A DNA stretch of 64,000 bases, taken from positions 20,106,974 through 20,170,973 of the forward strand of contig NC_089724.1 of NCBI RefSeq assembly GCF_035083965.1. Direction: 5' to 3'. Each line of letters starts with the position of its first letter. Within the stretch, counting starts at the first letter, position 1. Of the stretch, positions 15,701 to 58,819 are shown in pieces. This DNA is from Branchiostoma lanceolatum (taxonomy: Eukaryota; Chordata; Leptocardii; Amphioxiformes; Branchiostomatidae). Made by a program: the position numbers and the translations under genes. The notes below the pieces were generated by a model. That model was not told where the DNA came from. It ran no database searches and worked only from the letters and a program-made list of their open reading frames with translations.

Positions 15701-17567
15701 GTGTTGAAGACAGAGCACTGGTATCCCAAGCCGTTCTACCATGTCGAAACAGGCTTCTTCCCACCTGAGTGGCTCAAGCCAAGGCCCACTAAGCACGCTC
15801 CCACCACCTCCACCCACGATAACCCACCAAAGGTAAACACGAGCTAAACATGTGGACACATTTTAACTTTAAAGGTTGATGTAATAAGATCTATAAGAAG
15901 TTAGATTAACAGGTCAAAGTTCGGCTATTTGTCTTCTGTGGTACTTCAATGTTTTCTCTGAATCCGAGATAGACGTAATTAAGTAACCGATCTCACCAGG
16001 TAGTTACGGTGTTTTACAGGTCATTCAGAAGCCAACCGAGGTACCGCGAACCCGACGGCCCTTCAGTGGAATTTGGAAAGCCCTTGGGCTGACAACCGAG
16101 CAAACCGTGGTACCTACACCAACTCAGCCTGCCACTAGTACCAAACAACAGCAGACCACTACCGTTAAAGTCACCACGGAGAAGCCCCAAACCACGCGGC
16201 CACCCACTTCGGCGCCAAGCACCGAACCGGTAGCTGTAGCTCTTCAAAAAACCACACCTATCTCAAGCACTAAAATGGTTCAAATGACCACTACTCCAGC
16301 ATCGCCACCAACTACCAAGGCGCCTATAGTAACGACAACAGCCCCACAACCATTTACACCAACAACAAAGGCTGAGAAGACCCGTCAAGCGGTGTCCACC
16401 TACCAACCGCCCAAAACCACCAAACCTGAAATTGTCACCACCAGTAAACCAGCTACGACCACCACCGTGTTGGCCCGAGGGACAACAGCTAATAAAGTAT
16501 CACAGTCTGAAGCAACAACTCCAAAGCTGGTGCTAAATGAAGTTATCACAGCTAGCCAAATCTCTCTGGGCACACCAACGACAGCTCTTCCCCCGGCCAT
16601 GTCTACTATAACGTCACAAGTTCCCGTTAGTAGCACAAAATCGGCAAGAAAAACACCAGGCTCTCATGATGCAAAGAGTGCAGTTATCGCAACCACTGTT
16701 TCCCAGATGAAGCTGAAAACCACTGTGGAAACTAGTACCATCACACCGAAGTCTGAAGTCATCACGAAACACACCATCCGTCCCAGTATCCGAGGAACCA
16801 CGGCTCCTGTAACTCATCTCCCAACGGTTTCCACTGGCATCACTACTGAAGAAAATCGGATGCAGGGAGACCAACCTGTGCCTCCAAACACCCCTGTCAA
16901 GGTAACACCAGCGGCGACACAGAAACAAACGGTGACTCCAACAACTGTGAACGTCCTCCCCTCACCGACAACAAAGATACCAACCGAGTCAGCAGTACCA
17001 CCTACAGCGGCTGAGAAGAAGCCAACAACTGCTGTACCAACAAAACATACAGTTCCTGACCAGAAGACGTCCCAAACGGTGCCCATGGTTAGAATCGTAC
17101 AGGAAGCTGCCGACGTCACTAGTGCTCCTGACATAAAGACGACGACGCTGACCCGCCAAGTACCAGCTGTCGGGTCGAATAAAACGGAGGCCAGTAAGCA
17201 TGCGCCTGTAATTCAGCCCGAAGTGGCGAAGCCCACGTCCGTCATTACTACCTCCGCACCACAACCGCCACATCTGTCCACTCGGCCCTCTATTGAGTTC
17301 GTCGCCACGCCAACAGCTTACCGAACACCGTGGCACGCCGCCGTCACCTCTAGCTCTGACGACACATCGGTAGCCAATGAAAACGTGTCATCCATCACGG
17401 CAGTACATGATGACGCAACAGCCTTGGAGACAGCAATCGTGACGTCATCCACGCCCATCGAATTCTTCACCGCAACAGAAAGTATGACGCCGAAAGTTTC
17501 TCCCAGTGAAACTAAGCAGTCCACGCTCGCCTCTGTTATAAAGAGCACCGCTGATCGGGAGAAGTAA
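3790..17567 (+). CDS. Single-pass membrane protein with long Thr/Pro-rich mucin-like tail (5' end missing)
   Basis: Four exons were read: 3790-3900, 15379-15600, 15701-15832 and 16020-17567 (stop TAA). All introns are phase 0 with GT-AG ends and good polypyrimidine tracts. The first exon encodes one hydrophobic helix (about 22 residues, ATILFLVALAFAATATCLVV) followed by WRVYYNGDQCPPGQLRK. Joined to the next exon it gives CPPGQLRKGNRC, a possible disulphide pair next to the membrane. The second and third exons encode about 118 residues rich in Pro, His and aromatic residues (FYHVETGFFPPEWLKP). The last exon encodes 515 residues dominated by Thr, Pro, Ser, Val and Lys, with many TT and TTT runs, as expected for a heavily O-glycosylated stalk. 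No start codon in frame lies directly upstream, so at least one exon is missing; additional exons may hide in the 11.5 kb intron. I do not recognise the family. Whether the tail is extracellular is inferred from its composition. Confidence 0.7.
6427..6580. repeat. Short tandem repeat, about 55 base unit, three copies
   Basis: The core AAAGATGAAA followed by a GGATTTGAAGTATGAA-like half recurs near 6432, 6486 and 6539. The last two copies are closely alike and the first is diverged. An A-rich linker separates copies two and three. Confidence 0.6.
8208..8461. mobile_element. Foldback (MITE-like) element with ~110 bp inverted arms
   Basis: The left arm begins TATACGCTCGTTCTCAT and the right arm ends with its complement, ATGAGAACGAGCGTATA. 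Between them nearly the whole element pairs, with scattered mismatches and a loop of about 35 bases near 8318-8352. No open frame is present. The terminal TATACGC and lack of coding capacity fit a non-autonomous DNA transposon. I could not fix a target-site duplication, so the superfamily is open. Confidence 0.8.
11641..11674. repeat. TTTG microsatellite
   Basis: An interrupted (TTTG)n run lies within the long intron of the mucin-like gene. Confidence 0.7.
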
Positions 17568-35200: not shown

Positions 35201-37512
35201 AAATGTTTGAGTGCAATATTGAAGTGTATTCAAGATCATTTCATTAAGCATACACAGTACAATAATGGGTATACTCTATCTTTGTTGATACATAAAAGCA
35301 GTTGCCATTATCTCTTGTTATTGTTTCTTGGAAATCATCTATATTCATATGCGAATTCAGCCCTCACCTTTAAGATATGATTCCATGAGCTCAAACACCG
35401 CCTCTCTGTGGCTGCGCACTTGTTGTGGCATGGGCTGTTTCAGTACTGAAAACAAACAAACAAATGACCATGTACAAATTGTGACCAAAATATCTGTTCA
35501 AGGGACAATAATCATAATTTCTCAATAATGTGGTCATGTAGTTAGGGGAACAAGCCTAGCCTGATCATGGCAACACACTAGTACTGAGTTAGGTAAAATT
35601 TGTATATACAGCTGTCTATAGCCTAGGCACATACAGTTAGGCATAGTCACAACTAAGAAATATGTTTTTGATGCATGTCTTTCTACAGTTTGCCTTTAGC
35701 TATATAATCTATGATAGATAAGGTTTCATGGTGCAATAAAGTATAGTACGGCAAACAACAGTACAAATGTTTCAGCATTTCATCCTGTGGGGATACTCTA
35801 CACAGTACCTTCTGTTTTAAGAATCCTGATGGCCTCTGAGCAGGTGCGCATGAACGTCTGGGCATCATTGTCAATCTGGTCCCTCTCATTATCCGTCATC
35901 TTGGATACTTCTGATGTCAGATACCTGAGGGAATATTCATAGGAATAAATGTAGTCATTGGAGGAAAATAATCTACATTGATGATAGTACTTAGTACAGA
36001 ACTGTCTTTTTCTGAAAGGTTTGGATGAATAAATTTTAGCAGAGAAGCCTTAAGATACTGTAATCCAACATGGCACATATGACATGAAATGAAAAACCTG
36101 TATTACAGTGTATAGCTGACTTATCCTTGACTTAAGTTAAGTCAGGGATAAGTCAGCTATACACTGTAATACAGGTTTTTCATTTCATGTCATATGTGCC
36201 ATGTTGGATTACAGCGTACATCTGAACACATACGAAGATGCTGTTGCTTAACATGGTTGCCGGGATTCAGATTATTATCATGATGTCAATGAAAAGCCTC
36301 TATATCACAACATCATATGTGTTAACACGAAACGTTTATGATACTTACCCTGTAGCATCAATATAGTCCTTCCTGTGCTTCAGCAGGAAATCTCTCAACT
36401 TGCTGATATTCTGAACCTGAGAGAGAAAAATGAACAAGGAAACAACAACACATATGAGTCTTATGACACCTACATGTAAATGACATCAACAATAATAACA
36501 GCTTCAAAAATACATGTAAGTTATCTGACTTAGCCACTGTGTCAGTAAAGGAACAGGGAATGAATTAGAAATACATTATCATTTCTGTTTTCTGCAATAT
36601 TTCATGTGCCTAGTATTATATAACGTTAATGCTGCATGTACATGTAGAAGCTAGATGTAGTGACTGAACTATATGAGAACAGTTTAATTGTGAAAGACAA
36701 TGTATAAGATGTATTCTTACTAACTATCAAACATCTGTACAGCATGGTGTAGTCAAGTAACCAACATTCTATATTCTATGATTTTATGTGCAGCATAATT
36801 TGTCACGGCACATGACTGTGTGCATGTAATGTTGGCATTTTGACAGTGTCATTCATTTTCATGTGAATTAAGCAATAACTGTAGTTGTACTGAATATTGA
36901 TAGCTGGGCACGAATAATTATAGATATGATTTTTTGGACCATAACGATGATGCCATCAAGTTTTATTGCCCCTAGATAATATCATTTCTTCGAAGAAAAT
37001 ACAACACTTTGGTACACACCGCTGCAGTAAAAGTATGTTTTCCATGTGCATAATGATCAAAGCTACAAACGTACGTTCGCACATGATATCTATTGTCTGC
37101 AGTTATCAAGAAAGAAATGTACTAGTAATTGCCTAATCTTAGAAAAAAATCATTGTATAATACACTATCTGCACTTATAATAATGACATGTAAATTTCTG
37201 TTATACATACATGATGACATTATTGGTTAATGTCATTTTTACCAAATACCGTCATTTAACGTGAAAAACTGCCAGCTTGTACACGTCATCTGGAGACTCA
37301 TGGCCTCAGAAAATTAAACATGCAGTATTTGACGCATTCATTTGGGATTTTTGACTCACCACATCTTTTGCTCTGGCAACAAATTCTCCCCTAGGTCTTG
37401 GGTGAATTGATGCTGTAGTTTTTGCTTCTTCAGAACCAATGTTCAATATCTTATTGCGAGTTTTCACGGTTTTTATCGTCGCCTGAAACAAATTTGTACG
37501 ATCGACCGCCAT
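23229..37512 (-). CDS. STX18: Syntaxin-18, ER Qa-SNARE (complete, ten exons)
   Basis: Exons on the minus strand: 37512-37360, 36416-36349, 35924-35809, 35445-35368, 32188-32122, 31368-31152, 30075-30017, 29655-29586, 29399-29319 and 23321-23229 (stop TAG). Phases agree throughout and give about 333 residues; human syntaxin-18 has 335. The start [20 protein letters not shown] closely matches the vertebrate N-terminus. The N-terminal syntaxin-18 domain includes [14 protein letters not shown] and [15 protein letters not shown] charged acidic linker ([10 protein letters not shown]) precedes the SNARE motif ([18 protein letters not shown], then [20 protein letters not shown]). The zero-layer Gln appears to be Q276, the last codon of its exon. 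A C-terminal anchor ([20 protein letters not shown]) ends the protein. In the known family this t-SNARE works with Sec20/BNIP1, USE1 and SEC22B in Golgi-to-ER fusion. The 6 kb last intron carries enhancer-like sequence. The start codon sits inside an AAGATGGCGG motif. Confidence 0.95.
23322..29318. other. Last STX18 intron with enhancer-like sequence
   Basis: No coding exon was recognised. Around 26690-27060 and 27380-27660 are dense clusters of ATTA/TAATTAG cores, for example TTAGCTTTAATTAGC, next to unique, non-repetitive sequence. Another candidate lies at 28330-28520 (ATTGATTATTGCCC). They look like conserved regulatory elements, but only a cross-species alignment could show this. Confidence 0.35.
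36058..36214. repeat. 157 bp near-perfect palindrome in an STX18 intron
   Basis: The arms are 78 bases each with one central base (G at 36136). The left arm starts CTGTAATCCAACATGG and the right ends CCATGTTGGATTACAG. By eye only one mismatch is present, in the TTATCCTTGACTTAA / TTAAGTCAGGGATAA centre. There is no open frame. It is either a very young foldback element or an inverted-duplication artefact. Confidence 0.9.
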
Positions 37513-38560
37513 CTTGCCTGAAAATACACATCAGCTGTGGAATAGCTCATTTTATTAGAGGGGTAGCTTTTATATGATCTTTAAAAGATAATCCGCTAAA
37601 TAAAATGATAACATTATCTACACTTAATACGTCACCATGTAAGATTTCTAAGATTTTTTTTCTGATAGTCCACGGGCCCATGCAAAAGAACCCTTACCGG
37701 GACAGCCTATTCATTTTTCTAATCGTATAACCCAAATTGCCCTTTGACCCTTCTATTTTGACTCTGACATTTCTGATTTCATTGACGGATATTTTTCTCC
37801 CGGGATTTGTTGTTGATAGTTTCACTTCCCCTAACAGCACATGGAACTGACTGGATGTTCTGGCTAGTGTGGCTCTGTACGGATGTTTTCTGTGTCCAGA
37901 TCCATTCTGAAAGGTCATAAACGCAGAACGGAACCGAGACCAGCCTCCCGAGACAGCGGTTTCACAGGGAGTAGCTAGCGTGCCGTGTTTTGCGTGGGTG
38001 GAACTTTTGATGTCTGCCTTCCAAAGTTACGTTTGACAGTTGAACACGGGGGAACTAAAGACAGTAGCGTTTGGAGGATCGCGTGTAAGAACACATGTGG
38101 CGGCCGTGATACTATTATTCTTGCCCTACGGTAGAAAAGGGAACGGTAAGATAATTACGGAACACTTCAATTTTATTATGCTGTTTGCGTATACGTGCTT
38201 ATAACTTGCATATTATTAACGTAGTAATGTTTATGATCATGAACCAAGGCTGTGGACATATTTGAGAAATCAATCAACTTCTCGATTTATTTTTTAAAAG
38301 CCGTTTTGATATCAAAGCCGTTTGATTGTTATTGAGACTTAGCATTGATTGATGCTTTGTCATGTATGCCGTCGGTTTGTCAAGGTCAATATCTATTCTT
38401 GAGGTTATCTAATCTTTTGGTAGCCTCTGCACATGTTTTGAACTCAGTAATTTTCCAATCATTTGTCTGTCAGAAAATGTGACTGTGTTGTGACGACCAA
38501 AAAACTGTTAAGATGTGTGATTTTACGTACATTATTTAAAACTTTCTTGTTTTCTTGTAG
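37513..38560. promoter_or_regulatory. Divergent promoter region between STX18 and the Nudix/EF-hand/phosphatase gene
   Basis: The two start codons are 1,061 bases apart on opposite strands. A probable non-coding first exon of the plus-strand gene ends at 38145 before GTAAGATAAT. Its partner acceptor is TTTCTTGTAG at 38551-38560, 12 bases before the ATG. The transcription start itself is not visible. Confidence 0.45.
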
Positions 38561-38572
38561 GGTAGCAATATC

Positions 38573-41500
38573 ATGGCCAACACAAGAGGTGCCATAGCTG
38601 TCTTTGTTGCCAATAGTCCTTGCACAGAATGTCTCCTTACGTACAACGATGACAGAGGATGGTGGCTGCCCTACACAGAGGTGGAAGATGGAGAAGGTTT
38701 TGTGGAGGCAGCCACAAGAGTAGTCAGGGAGCAGTGTGGCATTGGTAAATACAAAAGAAGGAAATATCATTTCTGCAAATACTTTCTGCAAACAATGCAG
38801 TTGTATTGCAATCATATAGGTTCAGATTGCAAAACCTTCATGATGAAAATAGTATTTAACTGTTAGTGGTGCATGTCAATGATGAAGGCAACAAATCTGG
38901 TGTTTGTCTTGTCCTTCTCCCTGCTGCCTAACTCTGTAATCAATACACATGGTGCCAAAAGGCTACTTATAGGTACATGTATAAGTTTCCCTTTCTTTAT
39001 TATTTGACTCTACCAGGCCTAGATATTGATGGAGTTCTGGAGGTAAGACAGACAGCAGTGATGACATCATCCCATCCCAAGGTCATGGTGACCTTGTATG
39101 GCTCACAGAAGGGACATGAAGACAGCATACCTTTGGTGAGTATATATAGCAACAGTTGGTTATATTGAGGCCCACAAAATGATTTAATAATTCTCCTTTT
39201 AGACTGGCTGTGGTGTTTGAAAATAAAGATTGGAAGGTTCCTTACCAGTTGATTATATAGTGTTGCCAGTTGTCACTCATCTGTGTTGATATTGGATGTA
39301 TTCTTTGTCTTTCCTACCATGGCCAGGAACTGCAAAGCAAAGCATCATGGTATAATCTTCAGCAGTTACAGCAACTCTCTACTCAGGATCAAGGCCTTCT
39401 GGGACATGAGCCAATCAGCTGGTTCAGGCACGTACAGAGTGACAGCCATGTTGCCCCTCTCTCTGTCCTTCATTCCATCACCATGGCAACAGAGAGTGAC
39501 AGCTTCGAGGAACACGAGGAAAGTCTCCTCGAAGCTGCGAAGTTTAAGCAGGAAGAACAGGAAGAACTCTTGCAAGATTTCTACTCTGTGTGCTATCCCA
39601 GCATCACTATGGGGTGCCATACATTTGTCAGGTATTTTTCAGACAAAGAAGTGCCAATTGAAAAGTGCAGAAACCTCTTCACTGCATTTGATACTAGCAA
39701 TCATGATCTGCTAAATGCAAAAGACTTCTTGCTGGGCATGGCAGCTCTCCAACCTTGTGTCCCGCATGGCGGGATGCCTGCAGAAATTCGTTGCCGCTAC
39801 ATTTTCAGATACTACAACAAAAACTCTGATGGGATCTTGAAGCAAGAAGAGCTCCAGTCAATTGTTGCAGACATCTTTGAGTGCAAGGGGAGGCAGCTTA
39901 CAGCTAAAGAGTTAAAGGAAGAGACGTCCAAGGCTATAAAACTGTTTGGAAATGATGACAATGGTGAGGTGGCCCTTGCTGACTTTCTCAGTGCCGTGGG
40001 CTCTCTGAAATTCCGGGGTACCTCTCTGTTATTCCGATTACCTCATGACTTCACCAGAAGTCTGGACGCTAAGATGAATAATCTGGGGGCTGTAGGCAGG
40101 GATGTCCCTGATGCTGCCCCACGGAGAGAGAGAAAACCGTCAAAGAGAAAGAAATTTGACATTGGTGCTGAGTCGGACAGTTCAGGCAAGGAGTCAGATG
40201 TTGAGCTGCCAGATGTTGAAATTAAGTATGAGCTGGCTCTGCATTCAGTAAAGGTTGGTGTTGTTTTAAACGTTATATCAAGTAATGGTGAAATCTTAAA
40301 AGTTCGGGAGTTTTTATAATTTATTTTTTACTCAAACGGGTCACCACGTAACAAGACCTGAAGGTCACTTCAAGGTGTGAAGCGAAGGCCACTCCGAGGT
40401 TACATGTAATATATTATCAACAGAGAGATGTACCATGTATATGGAGAATACAAACAGTGTATTCCATGTCACCTAAACTGTTGTATTCTTTTTATGTCAT
40501 ACCCACCTGTTAATACGCGAAATGCAACAAAAAAATGTAAGAAATGTTCCACAGTGGCGCATGTGCAGAGCATTCAAATGAATTGATGGAAGCCTGTGTG
40601 ATGCAGTATGATACAGACGGGTCTGGAACACCCATATCAAATGTTATCATGGCCCAGATATGACATAGAGAAAGAAATGATATTTACACCCTACACATTC
40701 CATAACCTTCATAATACTTTTAACAAATAGCTACTGTGCACAATGTCTCATATTTTCTTTCCCTTCTGCTCTTGGTTAGGTGCGGAGGACAGGTGTTGTG
40801 TCGGATGTGAACACCCTGTGGGACCTACAAGGCACAAGTGCCCTGAGCCACAGCATTGGGACCGTTCTGGAGGGGGACAAGACTCGCTTCCAGCGCCTGC
40901 CGTCCGTACAGTGCTTCAACCAAAAGTCCCATCCCAACGAGATGTTGACTGGTCTACGCTACTTTGAACGTCCAGTCAAACGGCCTGATGGAACGCTTGA
41001 AAAGAAAAGTTTTGAATGGGGCCCTGTGAACAAGTAAGAAAAAAGATACTTTGCATTAAATGTTGCCAACTTTCAAGGGGCCAAGACCACATCAAATTGG
41101 TTTGGTTTGTACTATGTATACATGTATATAGAGTTGTCTTTTACATAATGTAAACCCTATCAGTAAGTGGCAAAATTTTGATAATCATATTGTCTGGATG
41201 ATGTTTTCTTTTGTTGCACTATCAATTCATGATTTTTAACAGTTGTAAGGCAAATGATTTTTTAGTCTTTATTATGGGAACAGGCTTTTTTCCTCTCGCT
41301 AACTCAATGTATATTATTATTATTTTAAGCACCTAAGAGTAGTGGTGCGGATCGGTCCGGCCGGACCGGTTCCGGACTTGTAAAACGTTTAGGTTCAAGT
41401 CCAAAAAAACCTAAACGTCTGGAAACAAGTCCGGACTTGAAAAAAAATTCTCTCACTCATACACTCTTTTTTGTTTTAAACCATCTTAAACCTTCCTTAA

Positions 41501-44065
41501 ATTGTGAAATTTGCACTAGAAAAATATGAAAACATTGCTGTTTTTGTGTTTATAACTGAACTTTTGTGTTAATTACTGACTGTATATAATTCCGTATATA
41601 CAGTTTTCAAATTACATGTAAAATATCTGCCAATATGCAATTTTACATGTAACACGAAAAAAATGTTCCAAAATTATTGTTCAGGTCCGGACTTTCAAGT
41701 CCGGACCTGAACCTAAACCTCTGGACTCGAGTCCGAACCTAAACCTAAACTCGGGTTTAGATCCACACCACTACCTAAGAGTTCGCTGCAGGGTGAAGGA
41801 ATGAACGTAATGTAAGATTTGTCCCCACTTCTACAGACCTGCCTTTGCCAAGTGTCTATTGTCCATCTGCCATGAGGTGAAGACTGTCTTCATGGATGAA
41901 CCTCGGCTGCTCAAAGTGCAGGCACCTGTTTACATACTAGGTGAGACCCAATCACAGACTCTGTATATCATCTCTGAAATGACCTGTACGGTTGATAACT
42001 GAGGAATGTATACTTGGTCTTGTGGTTAAAAAAACAGAAGACATAAATCATGAAAGCTAAGGCATAGCACCCTTTAGGCTATGAATTAGTAAACAAACTA
42101 TTTTTAGACTGAAGGTACATTGCGATTGAGTACTGTGCATTTGGATGAGAAACAAGCTATGCTTTATTTGCGCCCCTTTTCAGGTGACCTGCATGGAAAC
42201 TTCCAAGACTTGGTGTGTTTTGAGAAGGCCCTGTGGAGGATGGGCGTCCTGCTGACTCCTGCCTCCTTCCTGTTCCTGGGGGACTATGTGGACAGGGGAG
42301 AGTACGGCATTGAAGTGGTAGGTGTATTGTCCATGTTGAATATCCCTCCTGATTTGCCTATTCATTGTTTACTGTAGACTAATGTACAGCTTCTGGCTGT
42401 TTGCCATAGTGAACAGTCAGCATGTTCATTATGTTATATGTTATATTATGGTGGATAAGCTCTTCTTTTCGGTTCCTACCTTTTTACTAATTCAAAACTA
42501 GTTTTGCACTGTATAATTAATCGTATCTAGTCATATCTTCAATCTTTATTCATACAGATCAACATGGCATGAATACATGAACAACATACATGTACCCCTG
42601 AATTGCATTGATCTTATAATATAGTCCTATATATACAGTGAAAACAAAAAACAAAGACTGGGCATGAATACAAATCATTATGACTCAGTCTGCATTTATT
42701 TGTTTTACAGACAAAAGGTGTAGTGAAGAGAGGAATTGTACAGTCTGTTGTATATTTCCTATTGACAGTAACAACTACTGGCACTGTTCACTTTTTAAAC
42801 ACATTTCTGATCTCTATTGATTCCTTCTGTTCATCTGTACAGGTGGCCTACCTCTTTGCCCAGAAGCTGCTTGTTCCAGATAAGGTATTTCTTATCCGAG
42901 GGAACCACGAGCTGCGTGCAGTCCAGGAGAGGTTCTCCTTCCATACGGAGTGTCTTCAGAAGTTTGGTGAGAAGCTGGGGCTGGAGGTGTGGGAGACCAT
43001 TAACCAGTGTTTTGATGCCATGCCAGTCGCTGCAGTGGTCGACAACAACATCTTCTGCGCACATGGGGGGATCCCCAGCCTGTGGCACAGCTCAGGCCTG
43101 CTGGCAGACATGGAGAAGATCCCAGTACCACTGCGTGATCCAGAAAGCGAGAGTCCTTTGGCATGAGAACTGATGTGGGCAGATCCTGTATGTTTGTTTC
43201 TTTATGCTGTGTTTGTTTATCAAAGATAACCAGACTTCAACGATTACAATGCCAATGGCTGATGGAACAGTCACAAACACTATTGCAAGCTATCTCCATA
43301 ATTTTTTAGGAAAAATGTACAATGAGGTTGTTGTGTTTTTATTTAAGTTTTCTTTTAGTCATTTGCACTAATTTGACATTGTTTCGTTTTCGTTTTACTA
43401 CTTCAACATAGGAGACAAAATTTTGAGATATACTAACTTTTCTGCCAGTCTGTATAATTATGTAATTCTTGGTTAGTTACCACTGTTATTAGTTTAACTT
43501 AAAGAATAGTTGGTAGAGCTTGTAACCTGTCCTAAACTGACCCTTCTTTATGTCCATCAGCTAAGCTCTGATGACGTTGGTCCAGAGATGCAGGAGGAGC
43601 TGAAAACAAACCATGGCTTCACACAGAACCCCAAACGTGGGACGGCCCATGCCTTCAGTCACCAGGCCCTACAGGACTTCCTGGAGAGGAATGGACTCTC
43701 TCATGTAGTCAGGGCGCACGAGGTGCAACAGGCAGGATTCCAGGTAAGAACATGTGTTAGTGCTTAATGTGAATTCTGATGGGATTTTTGCTAAGGAAAA
43801 TTGTTATGCAAGCATTATAGGTTCTCTGAGAGCACATGTCAATTTGTGTGATCATCTACCACTAACTATGAGTGTTTTTTTCTCTCTGTCATTTAGTTAT
43901 AATAGAAATGAAATGAAACTGTTGACTGTTTTCTGCCAGGTACAGCAACATGGCAAACTACTGACTGTCTTCTCCTCCTCCCACTACTGTGGTGGGACTA
44001 ATGAGGCAGCGTGTGTGCTGGCTGACAGGAATAAGATTCGCACCATTCGATTGGACACAACCTGA
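38573..44065 (+). CDS. Nudix-like / EF-hand / PPP Ser-Thr phosphatase fusion, with one in-frame TGA
   Basis: Exons: 38573-38744, 39017-39135, 39327-40253, 40780-41033, 41837-41940, 42184-42317, 42843-43187, 43561-43743 and 43940-44065. All phases agree and would give 787 codons. Residues 1-145 form a Nudix-type fold: [20 protein letters not shown], then a hydrophobic strand pair, then [13 protein letters not shown] and GHEPISWF. The two Glu most important for catalysis are Val50 and Gln54, so hydrolase activity is doubtful. Residues 200-325 carry EF-hand loops near 219-230, 261-272 ([12 protein letters not shown], the best) and 305-316. A basic/acidic linker follows. The phosphatase motifs are GDLHGN (526), GDYVDRG (558), RGNHE (589), AHGG (643), RAHE (736) and FSSSHYCGG (757). 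Codon 678 (43164-43166) is TGA between PLA and ELMWADP, where related phosphatases continue. EF-hands lie N-terminal, unlike PPEF/RdgC, where they are C-terminal. The third exon joins the Nudix end to the EF-hands, so the fusion is not a mis-joined pair. A Ca2+-regulated phosphatase is inferred. Confidence 0.85.
41340..41773. mobile_element. Non-autonomous hAT-type DNA transposon in an intron
   Basis: A 434 bp element with ends TAGTGGTGCGGATC and GATCCACACCACTA is flanked by an exact 8 bp duplication, CCTAAGAG (41332-41339 and 41774-41781). TCCGGACT and TAAACCT motifs are repeated in both orientations near the ends. No open frame is present. Eight-base target duplications and TA-G ends with subterminal repeats are typical of hAT elements. 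It lies between phosphatase exons 40780-41033 and 41837-41940 and does not touch splice sites. Confidence 0.9.
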
Positions 44066-45819
44066 GTCAATGTTTTGGTATAGTCAAAAGATTATCAGTT
44101 CCAGCCATGACAGCTGATGAATTTCAGAGAAGAATTCTGAAAAGGTGTAACAAACTTCAACAGTGACATAATCTTTAAATCCTTTAAACATTATACTTTA
44201 GAATGGTTCAATCTTGCTTGGAATGTTTTGAAAAGAGCTGGAAACTGTCTAAAAGTGGTATTGGTAAGAAATATGTATGTTTATACATAAACCCATTACA
44301 TACAAAATAGGACATTGAACTGATCATAAGGCAGCTGTGTTGAAGGTCAGTTAGGATATAGGGAGCCAAAATGACAATAATGGCACATATTACAACTCTG
44401 GCTGTAAAGACAATGTAAGATCAAGTTAAATGCTCTGTGCCCAAAACTCCATTGAATAGTATGGGGCAAAAGTAGATGTCAACAAATCAAGGTCTGAGTA
44501 GGATTTTGTAAATATTTGGACAGATGCTTTACATACTGAAGAATTATATACAGACTGTACAACTTTAGGAGGCCATATCTGTAGATCTGATGATACACAC
44601 AGCAAGGGGGAGCTGGTACAATGTGATTGCCACACAGGATTGCCTGTGGTTTCTTAGTGCCAATTGTTCAGTGTGGATTGTTTATTTTAGCCAAGTTCAA
44701 GGTTCATTTGAAGACAAAGTGAAGAAGGTTGAGATGTTCTAATTACTAGAAAAGGTTCAGAAAAAATGTTCGTTTATACATGTAGGACATGAATTTCAGC
44801 AATTGTTGCTTAAGATGATATGTGAGATCACGGAAACAGCTTGCGAAGTACATTTTGCTTGTGTTTCATATGTGCTTGACATGTACACTGTTGCATTTTG
44901 ACATGATGTTTTGAATTTTATTGGTAGCTTTGTATGTTTTTTATCATAAAAATCTTTTTTAATTAATGTGCTGTGTTAGACATTTTGATATTGCTTCACA
45001 CTAATGTAGATCAAAGTGCATCTCATCATTTCTCATGTACTCTCTATATTGAGTATTTGGTATGTTTGGATCATAATGTTTACTGGATGTAATAGTTGTT
45101 TTATGCTGTTGTGCATGGAAGATTATTAAGTACTGTCTATCAATGATTCCACTGAGGCTCTAATATTGTTTATGGTATCAGTCATAGCTCAGTCTCTTAG
45201 TAGGAGCACAGTCAATACATTTCTTTCTCAGAATGCCTAAGGTTTGTTTCCTCATTGAAATATGTATCCATGATGATCCTTCCATGTTTGAGAAATTCTG
45301 TTTCAATATCACAGTTATGGTAGTATCTACTGTAGTCTATGTCCTACGTTGTTGGTGTGGTAGAGACAAGTATGCATATTCTCACTGATAAGCTTTTGAG
45401 GACTTAAAAGAATTTTAAATCCAGATTTAGAAATGTTTCTATTTTGTAGTATGTGCTGTAACCCATAGAAGCTTTGTGGTTATATGGATGCTTTTGCATT
45501 GGCACTGTTATGATTATCATGACTTATTGTCTGAAGTAAAGCTAGACATTGCAAAGGAAACCTTTTATTTCAAACATCTAAGCCAGTAATTATCAAGCAA
45601 TGCTCCAGACTGAGAGTTATCTTATATTTGTTAGGTCAGTGACCAGTTTTGTTTTGTACGATAATGTGTTTCTATTTTTGTACGTCTTGGTTCATATGGA
45701 AGGGAGTAATAAAATGTTCAAGTGTGAAGAATGTACAATATCGTTTCAGAGTCTTGGATTATTTTACAAAACAAGTAAAATTCTTTGTCGTTTTAACATC
45801 TGAAGACAACATTATCATT
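44066..45819. other. Convergent 3' untranslated region of the phosphatase gene and TANGO6
   Basis: There is no coding frame. Plus-strand AATAAA at 45708-45713 and minus-strand AATAAA at 45564-45569 would make the two 3' ends overlap by roughly 150 bases. No closer AATAAA for the plus-strand gene was noticed, so its 3' UTR may be about 1.7 kb. Confidence 0.4.
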
Positions 45820-52698
<6,879 letters not shown>

Positions 52699-56601: not shown

Positions 56602-58077
56602 TCACTCATAGTAAGCATTATAGACTTCAAAGAAGCTGCCATCTTGGTTACCACTCGTCTGTCTGTCTGTTGCCCTAGTGTTGATATACTTGACAAACCT
56701 CAGTGTGTCTGAATCTCTATACACCAGTGCCAGGGCATTGTCCTTAGGCACCACAGTTAAGAGTTCTTCATCCTCTCCTTTAGCTATGTATGACACATAA
56801 CCTCCGTAGTCACTCTTCCAATCTAGGGCATTGAGGTAAAACATGGAATCCAGGCAAAAATCATTGTTGTGAGGATCTTCGTCATGCATTAAAGTGTAGT
56901 ATCCATGTCTCCACCTGCGAACTTCGCCCCAACATTTTGGGGTGCCATGGCTGTCCTCTTCACCATCATCCTCTGATTGAAGAGTAAGTCCCGTAAGCCT
57001 GCCAAGTAGGAGGAACATAGCTTCAGACTGAAACATCTTTGCAACCTGCTGTACAAGCTCAGACATGCTGGTACTGTCTGCTTGCTCATAGTGCCTCTTG
57101 TTGAAGGGGCCTGTCTGGGTCCACTTCAGATCTTTGGCTTGTAGTGCAGTAGTTATCATCTGCACCTTGTCTTCCTTCAGGAAATCTTCCAACAGGATTT
57201 CCGAGTTGTCTTCAAAATCCTGCTGTATCCGAGCCAGGACTTCGTCATCAAAATAGAGTGGGTTGACCCAGTCTTCAACCATGTCAAAGTACCCATCTGT
57301 CCAGGGCTTCAGTGGGACTTTGGGCTCGGGACTCTGTGCAGGTCGGGCCAAGGGAGGCCCATGAAACCATCCTCCCATGGACAGACGGCGCTTATCTGTG
57401 GCTAGGACCTCTGCTACCTGGTGGAAGGAAGAGGCTGTCACTTCAAAGAAGACCAAGCTGTTCCTTGTTGGTAAGAGAGACTTAACCACCTTTTCTGGCT
57501 TGATCCGGCCTTCAGATGAGGAGAACAGGTCAAGTGTCCCTCCGTCTACCATGGTCCATGATGGAGGTGTGATGTAAAGAATGAAGGCGATGCGCCGCTC
57601 TTCCAGCTCATCATCATGGCAGAGCAGTGTGTCCGTGTGCTCATAGATAGAACTGGTAATGGCCACCTCATCATTCAGGGGAATTCCTGTCACCTCCACA
57701 AGCCAGTCTTTCATCTTCTCTTTCAATAATGACGCAAATGCACCTATTGAAGGACTGTCTGCTGTCTTCAGGTCATTGGTCTGCTTGAAACTGTAAAGGT
57801 CATTTGATTTTGTGTTGAAAGAGAGTTGGGAAAGATCAGTCTCCAATTTGGCGATAAACTCTTCTGAAAGGTAGTTCTTGATGATACAGTGACGGAAAGG
57901 CTTTGCTTGTAGTGTCACACAACTTGTCTCAACATCCAGACTTCTGGACCACGCGTCTTGGAGCTTCTCTGTGGTTTCTCCATCATGCAATGGCGGAGGA
58001 AGTTGGGGCTGAGTTTGATCACACTTTGCGAGCTTGACTTGGGGCCCTGAGGTACCGTCCTTTCGCCGTTTACTCAT
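56602..58077 (-). CDS. OGFOD1: OGFOD1-like prolyl hydroxylase of ribosomal protein uS12, intronless
   Basis: A single uninterrupted frame of 491 residues from ATG at 58077 (MSKRRKDG) to the stop at 56602; human OGFOD1 has 542 residues. The frame stays open upstream to 58104, but only from a GTG, so the ATG is preferred. The N-terminal half is a double-stranded beta-helix 2-oxoglutarate/Fe(II) oxygenase. Visible metal ligands are H154 and D156 (CHDDEL) and H219 (SSFHQVAEV); R231 (KRRLSMGGWFHG) would bind 2-oxoglutarate. The C-terminal half (from about residue 260) is the catalytically degenerate second oxygenase fold, including YYTLMHDEDPHN and LDSMFYLNALDWKSDYGGYV. Family function: trans-3-hydroxylation of a proline in ribosomal protein S23, affecting translation accuracy and stress responses. 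Vertebrate orthologues are multi-exon, so the absence of introns is notable. Confidence 0.92.
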   Translation of the reverse strand: MSKRRKDGTSGPQVKLAKCDQTQPQLPPPLHDGETTEKLQDAWSRSLDVETSCVTLQAKPFRHCIIKNYLSEEFIAKLETDLSQLSFNTKSNDLYSFKQTNDLKTADSPSIGAFASLLKEKMKDWLVEVTGIPLNDEVAITSSIYEHTDTLLCHDDELEERRIAFILYITPPSWTMVDGGTLDLFSSSEGRIKPEKVVKSLLPTRNSLVFFEVTASSFHQVAEVLATDKRRLSMGGWFHGPPLARPAQSPEPKVPLKPWTDGYFDMVEDWVNPLYFDDEVLARIQQDFEDNSEILLEDFLKEDKVQMITTALQAKDLKWTQTGPFNKRHYEQADSTSMSELVQQVAKMFQSEAMFLLLGRLTGLTLQSEDDGEEDSHGTPKCWGEVRRWRHGYYTLMHDEDPHNNDFCLDSMFYLNALDWKSDYGGYVSYIAKGEDEELLTVVPKDNALALVYRDSDTLRFVKYINTRATDRQTSGNQDGSFFEVYNAYYE

Positions 58078-58819
58078 GCTTAGTAGTACAGATGACCCAT
58101 GCACAGTGCCCTAAATTATGTACAACCAAACTGTTGTACATAAATGTCCAACTCTAAGCTTCTTCTTTGTAGTATTCACAGCAACCTAACCCTGAGAAAA
58201 GATTGACATATCCTGAAGACCCAATCGTTTTGAAGTCGAGACGTGGGTGCGATTGCCTCCAAAATGGTGTCTTTGGTGAAATATTCGGGAGTCACTTTGA
58301 ACATCTCAGACTACGTCCACCACATGTCCTTTCGCCATGTTGGTCCTGCCAAGGGTGAAGACCATTTTTTGAGGGGGGGATATGAATACTGTTTTCGAAG
58401 TTGTTTGCAACTATCTAAGAAGTTTTATCGAATAAGTAGTTAGGTCATTTTAATAAATATCTGGTTTAAAACCATTGGTGTATATTCATAGTTCTATCAG
58501 TAGCAGAGTTAGTGCCACAATTATGACGAACGAATTTTCCGTAGATCCCCTCAATAATGGTAAAATCCTGTGGGCGTGTCTATCCTGTCACACCCCTGTG
58601 GTAAATGGAACATTCTAATTTACTGTCCCAACATGCAACATTCCAACATGGTGTCGGGGGCATATTGACAATTTTATTTACGGACATTTTTGGGGTTTAT
58701 ATCAAAACATGAACGTTTTAACCAGTAACTATGTAATCTGATCCATGGAGGACCTTGGGGACATTCCATTGAAGTGAAGTCCTGCAGGATTTCTCCCCAG
58801 GAATTACGGAGGTGGCGCA
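58078..58819. promoter_or_regulatory. Divergent promoter region between OGFOD1 and the membrane-hairpin gene
   Basis: 742 bases separate the two start codons on opposite strands. It holds no credible coding frame. A CCAAAATGG motif occurs at about 58258. No TATA box was identified. Confidence 0.4.

Follow-up and report, generated by a model that had tools for sequence, protein, structure and literature searches.

We analyzed a 64,000-nucleotide stretch of Branchiostoma lanceolatum DNA (assembly GCF_035083965.1, contig NC_089724.1, positions 20,106,974 to 20,170,973; the window, whose own numbering is used below) and found a nine-exon locus on its + strand, at 38573-44065, in which a Nudix part, an EF-hand module and a PPP serine/threonine phosphatase follow one another in that order. 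The sequence is best read as that of a putative PPP phosphatase that would respond to Ca2+ and carries a module derived from a Nudix domain. We give about even confidence to the explanation as a whole, in which the locus would encode a single-chain, three-module phosphatase with a Ca2+ switch and a Nudix sensor, and a TGA codon within the frame is an error or a lesion. The domain order is real and unusual, and the integrity of the copy in the window is in doubt.

GT/AG borders were found at all eight introns and the exon phases match, so that the coordinates and exon chain given in the original prediction, a reading of the same letters and their open reading frames, could be retained. The joined frame comprises 788 codons including the final stop, and because the other two frames of the joined nine-exon sequence carry 27 and 50 stops, it is coding rather than a product of chance. 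It has one internal TGA, at codon 678. The earlier statement that the three domains share one frame is right as regards the phases and needs qualifying for this codon, which had gone unmentioned. Scored with donor weights, the eight donor sites ranged from 0.5 to 7.2 bits, with the minimum at exon 7, which also bears the TGA.

The phosphatase part matched the Pfam Metallophos profile at 79.5 bits (cutoff 21.5) and contains the motifs GDLHG, GDYVDRG, RGNHE, HGG, RAHE and YCGG, which cover the signatures of PPP Ser/Thr phosphatases (GDxHG, GDxVDRG, GNHE, HGG and RxHE, the last lying beyond the TGA). Of the PPP structures in the PDB, BSU1 had the best single-domain score (191 bits, E = 2.4e-55), with calcineurin A reaching 176 bits (E = 8.9e-51), Chlamydomonas FAP15 169.5 and PP1 up to 165; the nominally first entry, 9b9g (243 bits), is a calcineurin construct matched in two stretches, the better of which scored 167. 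Viral contigs yielded no relatives of the PPP part that precedes the TGA.

Affiliation was assessed on a seven-sequence alignment of the lancelet phosphatase with BSU1, PP2B, PP2A, PP1, PP5 and RdgC. Identities were 100/252 with BSU1, 105/265 with PP2B, 89/269 with PP2A, 88/269 with PP1, 82/268 with PP5 and 73/254 with RdgC, the lowest of the six. The tree paired PP5 with RdgC (97-99% support) and placed the lancelet sequence beside PP2B at 62-69%. In approximately unbiased (AU) tests, p was 0.746 for a grouping with PP2B, 0.501 with BSU1, 0.163 with PP2A and 0.125 with PP1, while a position within the PP5 and RdgC group fell just short of rejection (p = 0.060) and RdgC as sister was rejected (p = 0.0008). 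A four-residue insertion (GEKLGLEVW against GESYGFEAW) is complete only in BSU1 among the six references and absent from PP1, PP2B and PP5; since PP2A fills one of its columns and RdgC three, we regard it as weak evidence. Around FTQNPKRG (FTxNxxRG) the sequence is similar to that of PP2B, which also outscores BSU1 on the residues that follow the TGA. These sequence comparisons indicate that the phosphatase is not a sister of RdgC, and that calcineurin and Bsu1 come nearest to it and are inseparable, with conflicting signals. The PPEF/RdgC family, which the original prediction had taken as its point of comparison, is thus replaced. EF-hands on a PPP phosphatase outside PPEF have a precedent in section 8 of Kerk et al. 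2021 (PMC8249667).

The EF-hand module was recognized in exon 3 on its own (EF-hand_7, 30.6 bits, cutoff 30; EF-hand_6, 26.1 bits, cutoff 25), with loops at residues 219-230, 261-272 and 305-316. The region matched 33 distinct PDB sequences at E ≤ 0.001, headed by GCAP2 (1.7e-8) and including KChIP2 (1.6e-7), NCS-1 (4.6e-7) and calcineurin B (7.8e-5), and the alignments to GCAP2, KChIP and NCS-1 extend over some 130 to 155 query residues. By sequence, the module shows three recognizable loops and aligns with four-EF-hand proteins.

Within residues 1-150, Pfam NUDIX scored 25.4 bits (cutoff 21.1) over residues 6-113, which places this part in the Nudix superfamily by fold and bears out the profile check on which the first reading had staked its Nudix domain. 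Together with the other Pfam matches, it also confirms the domain order that had been proposed. The same profile gave 22.2 bits on a 677-residue piece, 21.7 on exons 1 and 2 together and 19.6, under the cutoff, on exon 1 alone. The best PDB sequence matches were weak (NUDT18, E = 0.001; Ap4A hydrolase, 0.011), and a scan of NCBIfam returned no match near its cutoffs. The Nudix box occupies residues 35-57 and its core, residues 49-54, reads RVVREQ, which departs from the consensus REUXEE (given in the passages of PMC6461439 on the Nudix box) by Val in place of the first glutamate and Gln in place of the last; the glutamate of GE and one of the two in the EE pair are retained. The core expected of an active Nudix hydrolase is thus lacking. 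According to the same passages, NUDT9 is inactive when its box is mutated to RILGEE or REFGKK, human TRPM2 has an inactive RILRQE box in a NUDT9-H domain that binds ADP-ribose, and in sea-anemone TRPM2 hydrolysis can be disrupted while channel gating stays intact. Because RVVREQ resembles these inactive boxes and, like RILRQE, lacks the first glutamate, the Nudix domain of the lancelet protein is likely to be non-hydrolytic and, by analogy, probably serves as a sensor or scaffold rather than a hydrolase.

Several observations count against the explanation as a whole. EF-hand_7 sits at its cutoff, and on the longer piece it scores 29.9 against 30. The EF loops are only partly canonical: one has N and another G at position 1, and two end in D. 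By the usual rules, only the second (261-272) is near-canonical. The TGA, if read as a stop, costs the protein its final 109 residues, among them the RAHE and YCGG motifs, and it would lie 204 bases (21 + 183) upstream of the last exon junction. A stop so placed is expected to cause nonsense-mediated decay of the transcript. For the Nudix part, RVV stands for REV in a solved NUDT18 chain too (4hvy), whether natural or engineered, so that Val in the box need not by itself mean an altered role, and the NUDT9 and sea-anemone TRPM2 evidence, as given in those parts of PMC6461439, comes from double mutants and not from the exact changes in RVVREQ.

The TGA lies in the conserved PPP core, and all six reference phosphatases have WSDP where the lancelet sequence reads ELMWADP directly after it. 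The 109 residues that follow match phosphatases by themselves (PP2B, E = 7e-13, an ordinary chain; BSU1, 2e-10; PP5; RdgC) and keep NPKRG, RAHE and YCGG. As these codons are still clearly those of a phosphatase, the TGA most likely reflects an error in the sequence or a lesion of this copy, recent or allelic, and does not belong to the normal protein. If it is a lesion, it is a recent one. It may be a sequence error, a nonsense allele or the mark of a recent pseudogene, and the sequence fits all three. A bypass through another exon 7 donor was rejected: of 21 upstream GT dinucleotides, three score at least as high as the model donor (2.3, 2.8 and 3.2 bits), and the exon would then end at 42884, 42966 or 42986, with loss of HGG each time.

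The alternative that survives best is that the locus is a truly inactive copy, in which a nonsense change, fixed or common, has produced the TGA, the transcript is decayed, and the locus is a recent pseudogene or a null allele of a working gene. This is a minority possibility, on the unlikely side, that nonetheless deserves weight. The position of the TGA in a conserved stretch agrees with it, as do the excision of conserved motifs by all three competitive donors, the weakness of the exon 7 donor (the lowest of eight), and the outcome of searches for a selenocysteine insertion sequence (SECIS). An Rfam scan of 38500-47000 at E ≤ 10 gave no SECIS among its 13 matches, and a custom scan of 44066-46800, run without a positive control, gave three weak candidates (best -8.5 kcal/mol), within the background of 14 control pieces of the window (one to seven candidates each, best -3.9 to -19.0 kcal/mol). 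Neither scan showed, above background, the SECIS that a selenoprotein needs in its 3' untranslated region. Set against an inactive copy is that the TGA is the sole lesion seen: the other codons are open, all intron borders are GT/AG, and the later catalytic motifs are kept.

Whether the three domains form one chain depends on two joins of different standing. Exon 3 starts at residue 98, before the NUDIX match ends at residue 113, so the join of Nudix part and EF-hands is physical within that exon, as the original prediction had argued. The join of EF-hands and phosphatase depends on the exon phases, for no single exon holds both domains and the intervening exon 4 has no Pfam match; it is plausible given that EF-hand Bsu1-type phosphatases are published (PMC8249667, section 8). 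Two neighboring genes, one with a Nudix/EF-hand transcript and one with a phosphatase transcript, might instead have been wrongly merged. Besides the exon arrangement, an ATTAAA at 41055, the only one of its kind in intron 4, would allow for this, and prediction errors in lancelet gene models are known from the part of PMC4967905 that deals with them. We consider such a merger improbable, since the phases join exactly, fusions of EF-hands and PPP occur elsewhere (in the same section of PMC8249667), and intron 3 has neither AATAAA nor ATTAAA.

A similarly slim chance attaches to a dual enzyme, in which the Nudix part would have kept its hydrolase activity. The fold recognized by Pfam, the two retained glutamates and the RVV of chain 4hvy speak for activity; against it stand the Val and Gln at the first and last glutamate positions of REUXEE, where double substitutions, though not the exact changes seen here, inactivate NUDT9 and impair hydrolysis by sea-anemone TRPM2 (same passages of PMC6461439). 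Least probable, to a degree that we would hardly entertain it, is a selenoprotein phosphatase with selenocysteine at the TGA: PP1, PP2A, PP2B and PP5 have Cys right before the D of DxLWSDP, the place of the TGA codon when aligned without gaps, and the lancelet selenoproteome was the largest reported in animals to 2012 (in the section of PMC3473315 concerned), but the aligner set that Cys two columns left of the TGA codon, BSU1 carries Lys in the TGA column, neither SECIS scan lent support, and the word phosphatase is absent from the main text of PMC3473315.

On the preferred explanation, a single chain with a Ca2+ switch, Ca2+ binding would alter the contact of the EF-hands with the adjoining catalytic domain, and this change would switch Ser/Thr dephosphorylation of protein targets, so that the lancelet chain would correspond to a calcineurin A/B pair with its two parts covalently joined. 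Lacking the first REUXEE glutamate, the Nudix fold could bind a nucleotide-type ligand, or else a partner, leave it uncleaved and thereby bias the switch, a role modeled on the degenerate NUDT9-H domain of TRPM2. Gating by both calcium and a nucleotide-type ligand, as had been suggested for this locus, finds the EF-hands and the Nudix fold in place and is qualified by the degenerate RVVREQ box and by the TGA, which may prevent a full-length enzyme.

Calcineurin is alike in that Ca2+ acts on it through an EF-hand module, it has the nominally best tree position, and it shares the FTxNxxRG stretch. It differs in that its EF-hands are in a separate B subunit, whereas those of the lancelet protein are N-terminal in the same chain. 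Moreover, only 22 residues of the model follow SSSHYCGG, which leaves no room for the C-terminal parts of calcineurin A, and none was found. These parts are the B-binding helix, the calmodulin-binding region and the autoinhibitory region. PPEF/RdgC also unites a PPP domain and EF-hands in a single chain, and is set apart by its low identity, its rejection as sister and the YYA of RdgC against YCG in the lancelet protein. In PPEF/RdgC the EF-hands are C-terminal, and in the lancelet protein they are N-terminal to the phosphatase. TRPM2 likewise has a degenerate Nudix box within a larger signaling protein (human RILRQE, lancelet RVVREQ; passages of PMC6461439 as above); there, NUDT9-H is joined to a channel and not to a phosphatase, and the best, weak matches of the lancelet part are to NUDT18 and Ap4A hydrolase.

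The nearest published architecture is that of the Bsu1-type phosphatases with EF-hands and without Kelch repeats, found in protists and a fungus, a set that Kerk et al. describe as 'including' Thecamonas, Monosiga, Salpingoeca, Basidiobolus and Nannochloropsis (PMC8249667). The lancelet protein resembles it in carrying EF-hands as an accessory to the PPP domain, and BSU1 gave the top single-domain PDB score and the only full insertion, although the seven-sequence tree does not decide between PP2B and BSU1. Section 8 of that paper counts two choanoflagellates in the set and names neither an animal nor a Nudix part. The newest element here is accordingly the degenerate Nudix part, as EF-hands with a Bsu1-type PPP domain are partly preceded and an animal host goes unmentioned in that section. 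Among the papers listed by searches of the open-licence text of PubMed Central, a collection that mostly leaves out subscription journals, we recognized no report of a Nudix/EF-hand/PPP protein. The main texts of two papers on lancelet domain innovation (PMC4967905, PMC6071037) contain neither Nudix nor phosphatase, and that of the 2023 follow-up (PMC10214084) does not contain the word Nudix. Ilborin, as outlined in PMC8864356, combines EF-hands with a TIM barrel and was set aside as a different architecture.

Table 1 Features of the nine-exon locus, in window coordinates.
Feature	Position	Strand	Evidence
Exon 1: start codon, Nudix fold (first half) with degenerate Nudix box	38573..38744	+	NUDIX 19.6 bits alone
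Exon 2: Nudix fold, middle part	39017..39135	+	Exons 1 and 2, NUDIX 21.7 bits
Exon 3: end of the Nudix match, EF-hand module, charged linker	39327..40253	+	Pfam and PDB matches
Exon 4: linker from EF-hands to phosphatase, without Pfam match	40780..41033	+	
Exon 5: PPP catalytic domain, initial part	41837..41940	+	PDB matches
Exon 6: metal-site motifs GDLHG and GDYVDRG	42184..42317	+	Motifs
Exon 7: RGNHE, HGG, four-residue insertion (BSU1 length), TGA near end, weakest donor	42843..43187	+	
In-frame TGA, codon 678, in the conserved PPP core directly before ELMWADP	43164..43166	+	
Exon 8: NPKRG and RAHE motifs	43561..43743	+	Motifs; PDB matches
Exon 9: SSSHYCGG motif and terminal TGA	43940..44065	+	Motifs; PDB matches
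AATAAA, probable poly(A) signal, sole AATAAA/ATTAAA hexamer in 44066-45900	45708..45713	+	

Intron 4 also contains nested inverted and direct repeats of AAGTCCGGACTTG-type units (41339-41774), whose outer arms of 15 nt are 93% complementary and 406 nt apart, with the look of a small miniature inverted-repeat transposable element. Around the locus, eight reading frames were compared with Pfam, four of which scored above cutoff. A match to the N-terminus of syntaxin-18 (37306-37527, - strand; 31.0 bits, cutoff 30.6) lies upstream in head-to-head orientation, with a possible shared promoter region, while TANGO6-like pieces lie convergently downstream on the - strand (RTP1_C1 at 47093-47743, TANGO6_N at 51033-52181). 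Farther along the - strand, an unbroken frame of 502 codons (56605-58110) has 2OG-Fe(II) oxygenase and Ofd1_CTDD domains and is presumably OGFOD1-like. Such neighbors, like the introns, are in keeping with an animal genome. A Thr/Pro/Ser-rich, mucin-like frame of 526 codons on the + strand (15987-17564) had no Pfam match at E = 0.01.

Tentatively, and with more doubt than confidence, we suggest by analogy that an animal lineage may have kept an ancient EF-hand PPP phosphatase, otherwise recorded in protists and a fungus in one survey, and fused it to a dead Nudix sensor of a nucleotide-type second messenger, such that Ca2+ and a metabolite would be read together and turned into dephosphorylation. 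The locus may thereby extend the EF-hand Bsu1-type set from the protists and fungus named in section 8 of PMC8249667 to animals. Should other animals prove to have this architecture, animal signaling would gain a further Ca2+-controlled phosphatase next to calcineurin and PPEF/RdgC, and there would be a testable case of a degenerate Nudix sensor outside TRPM2.

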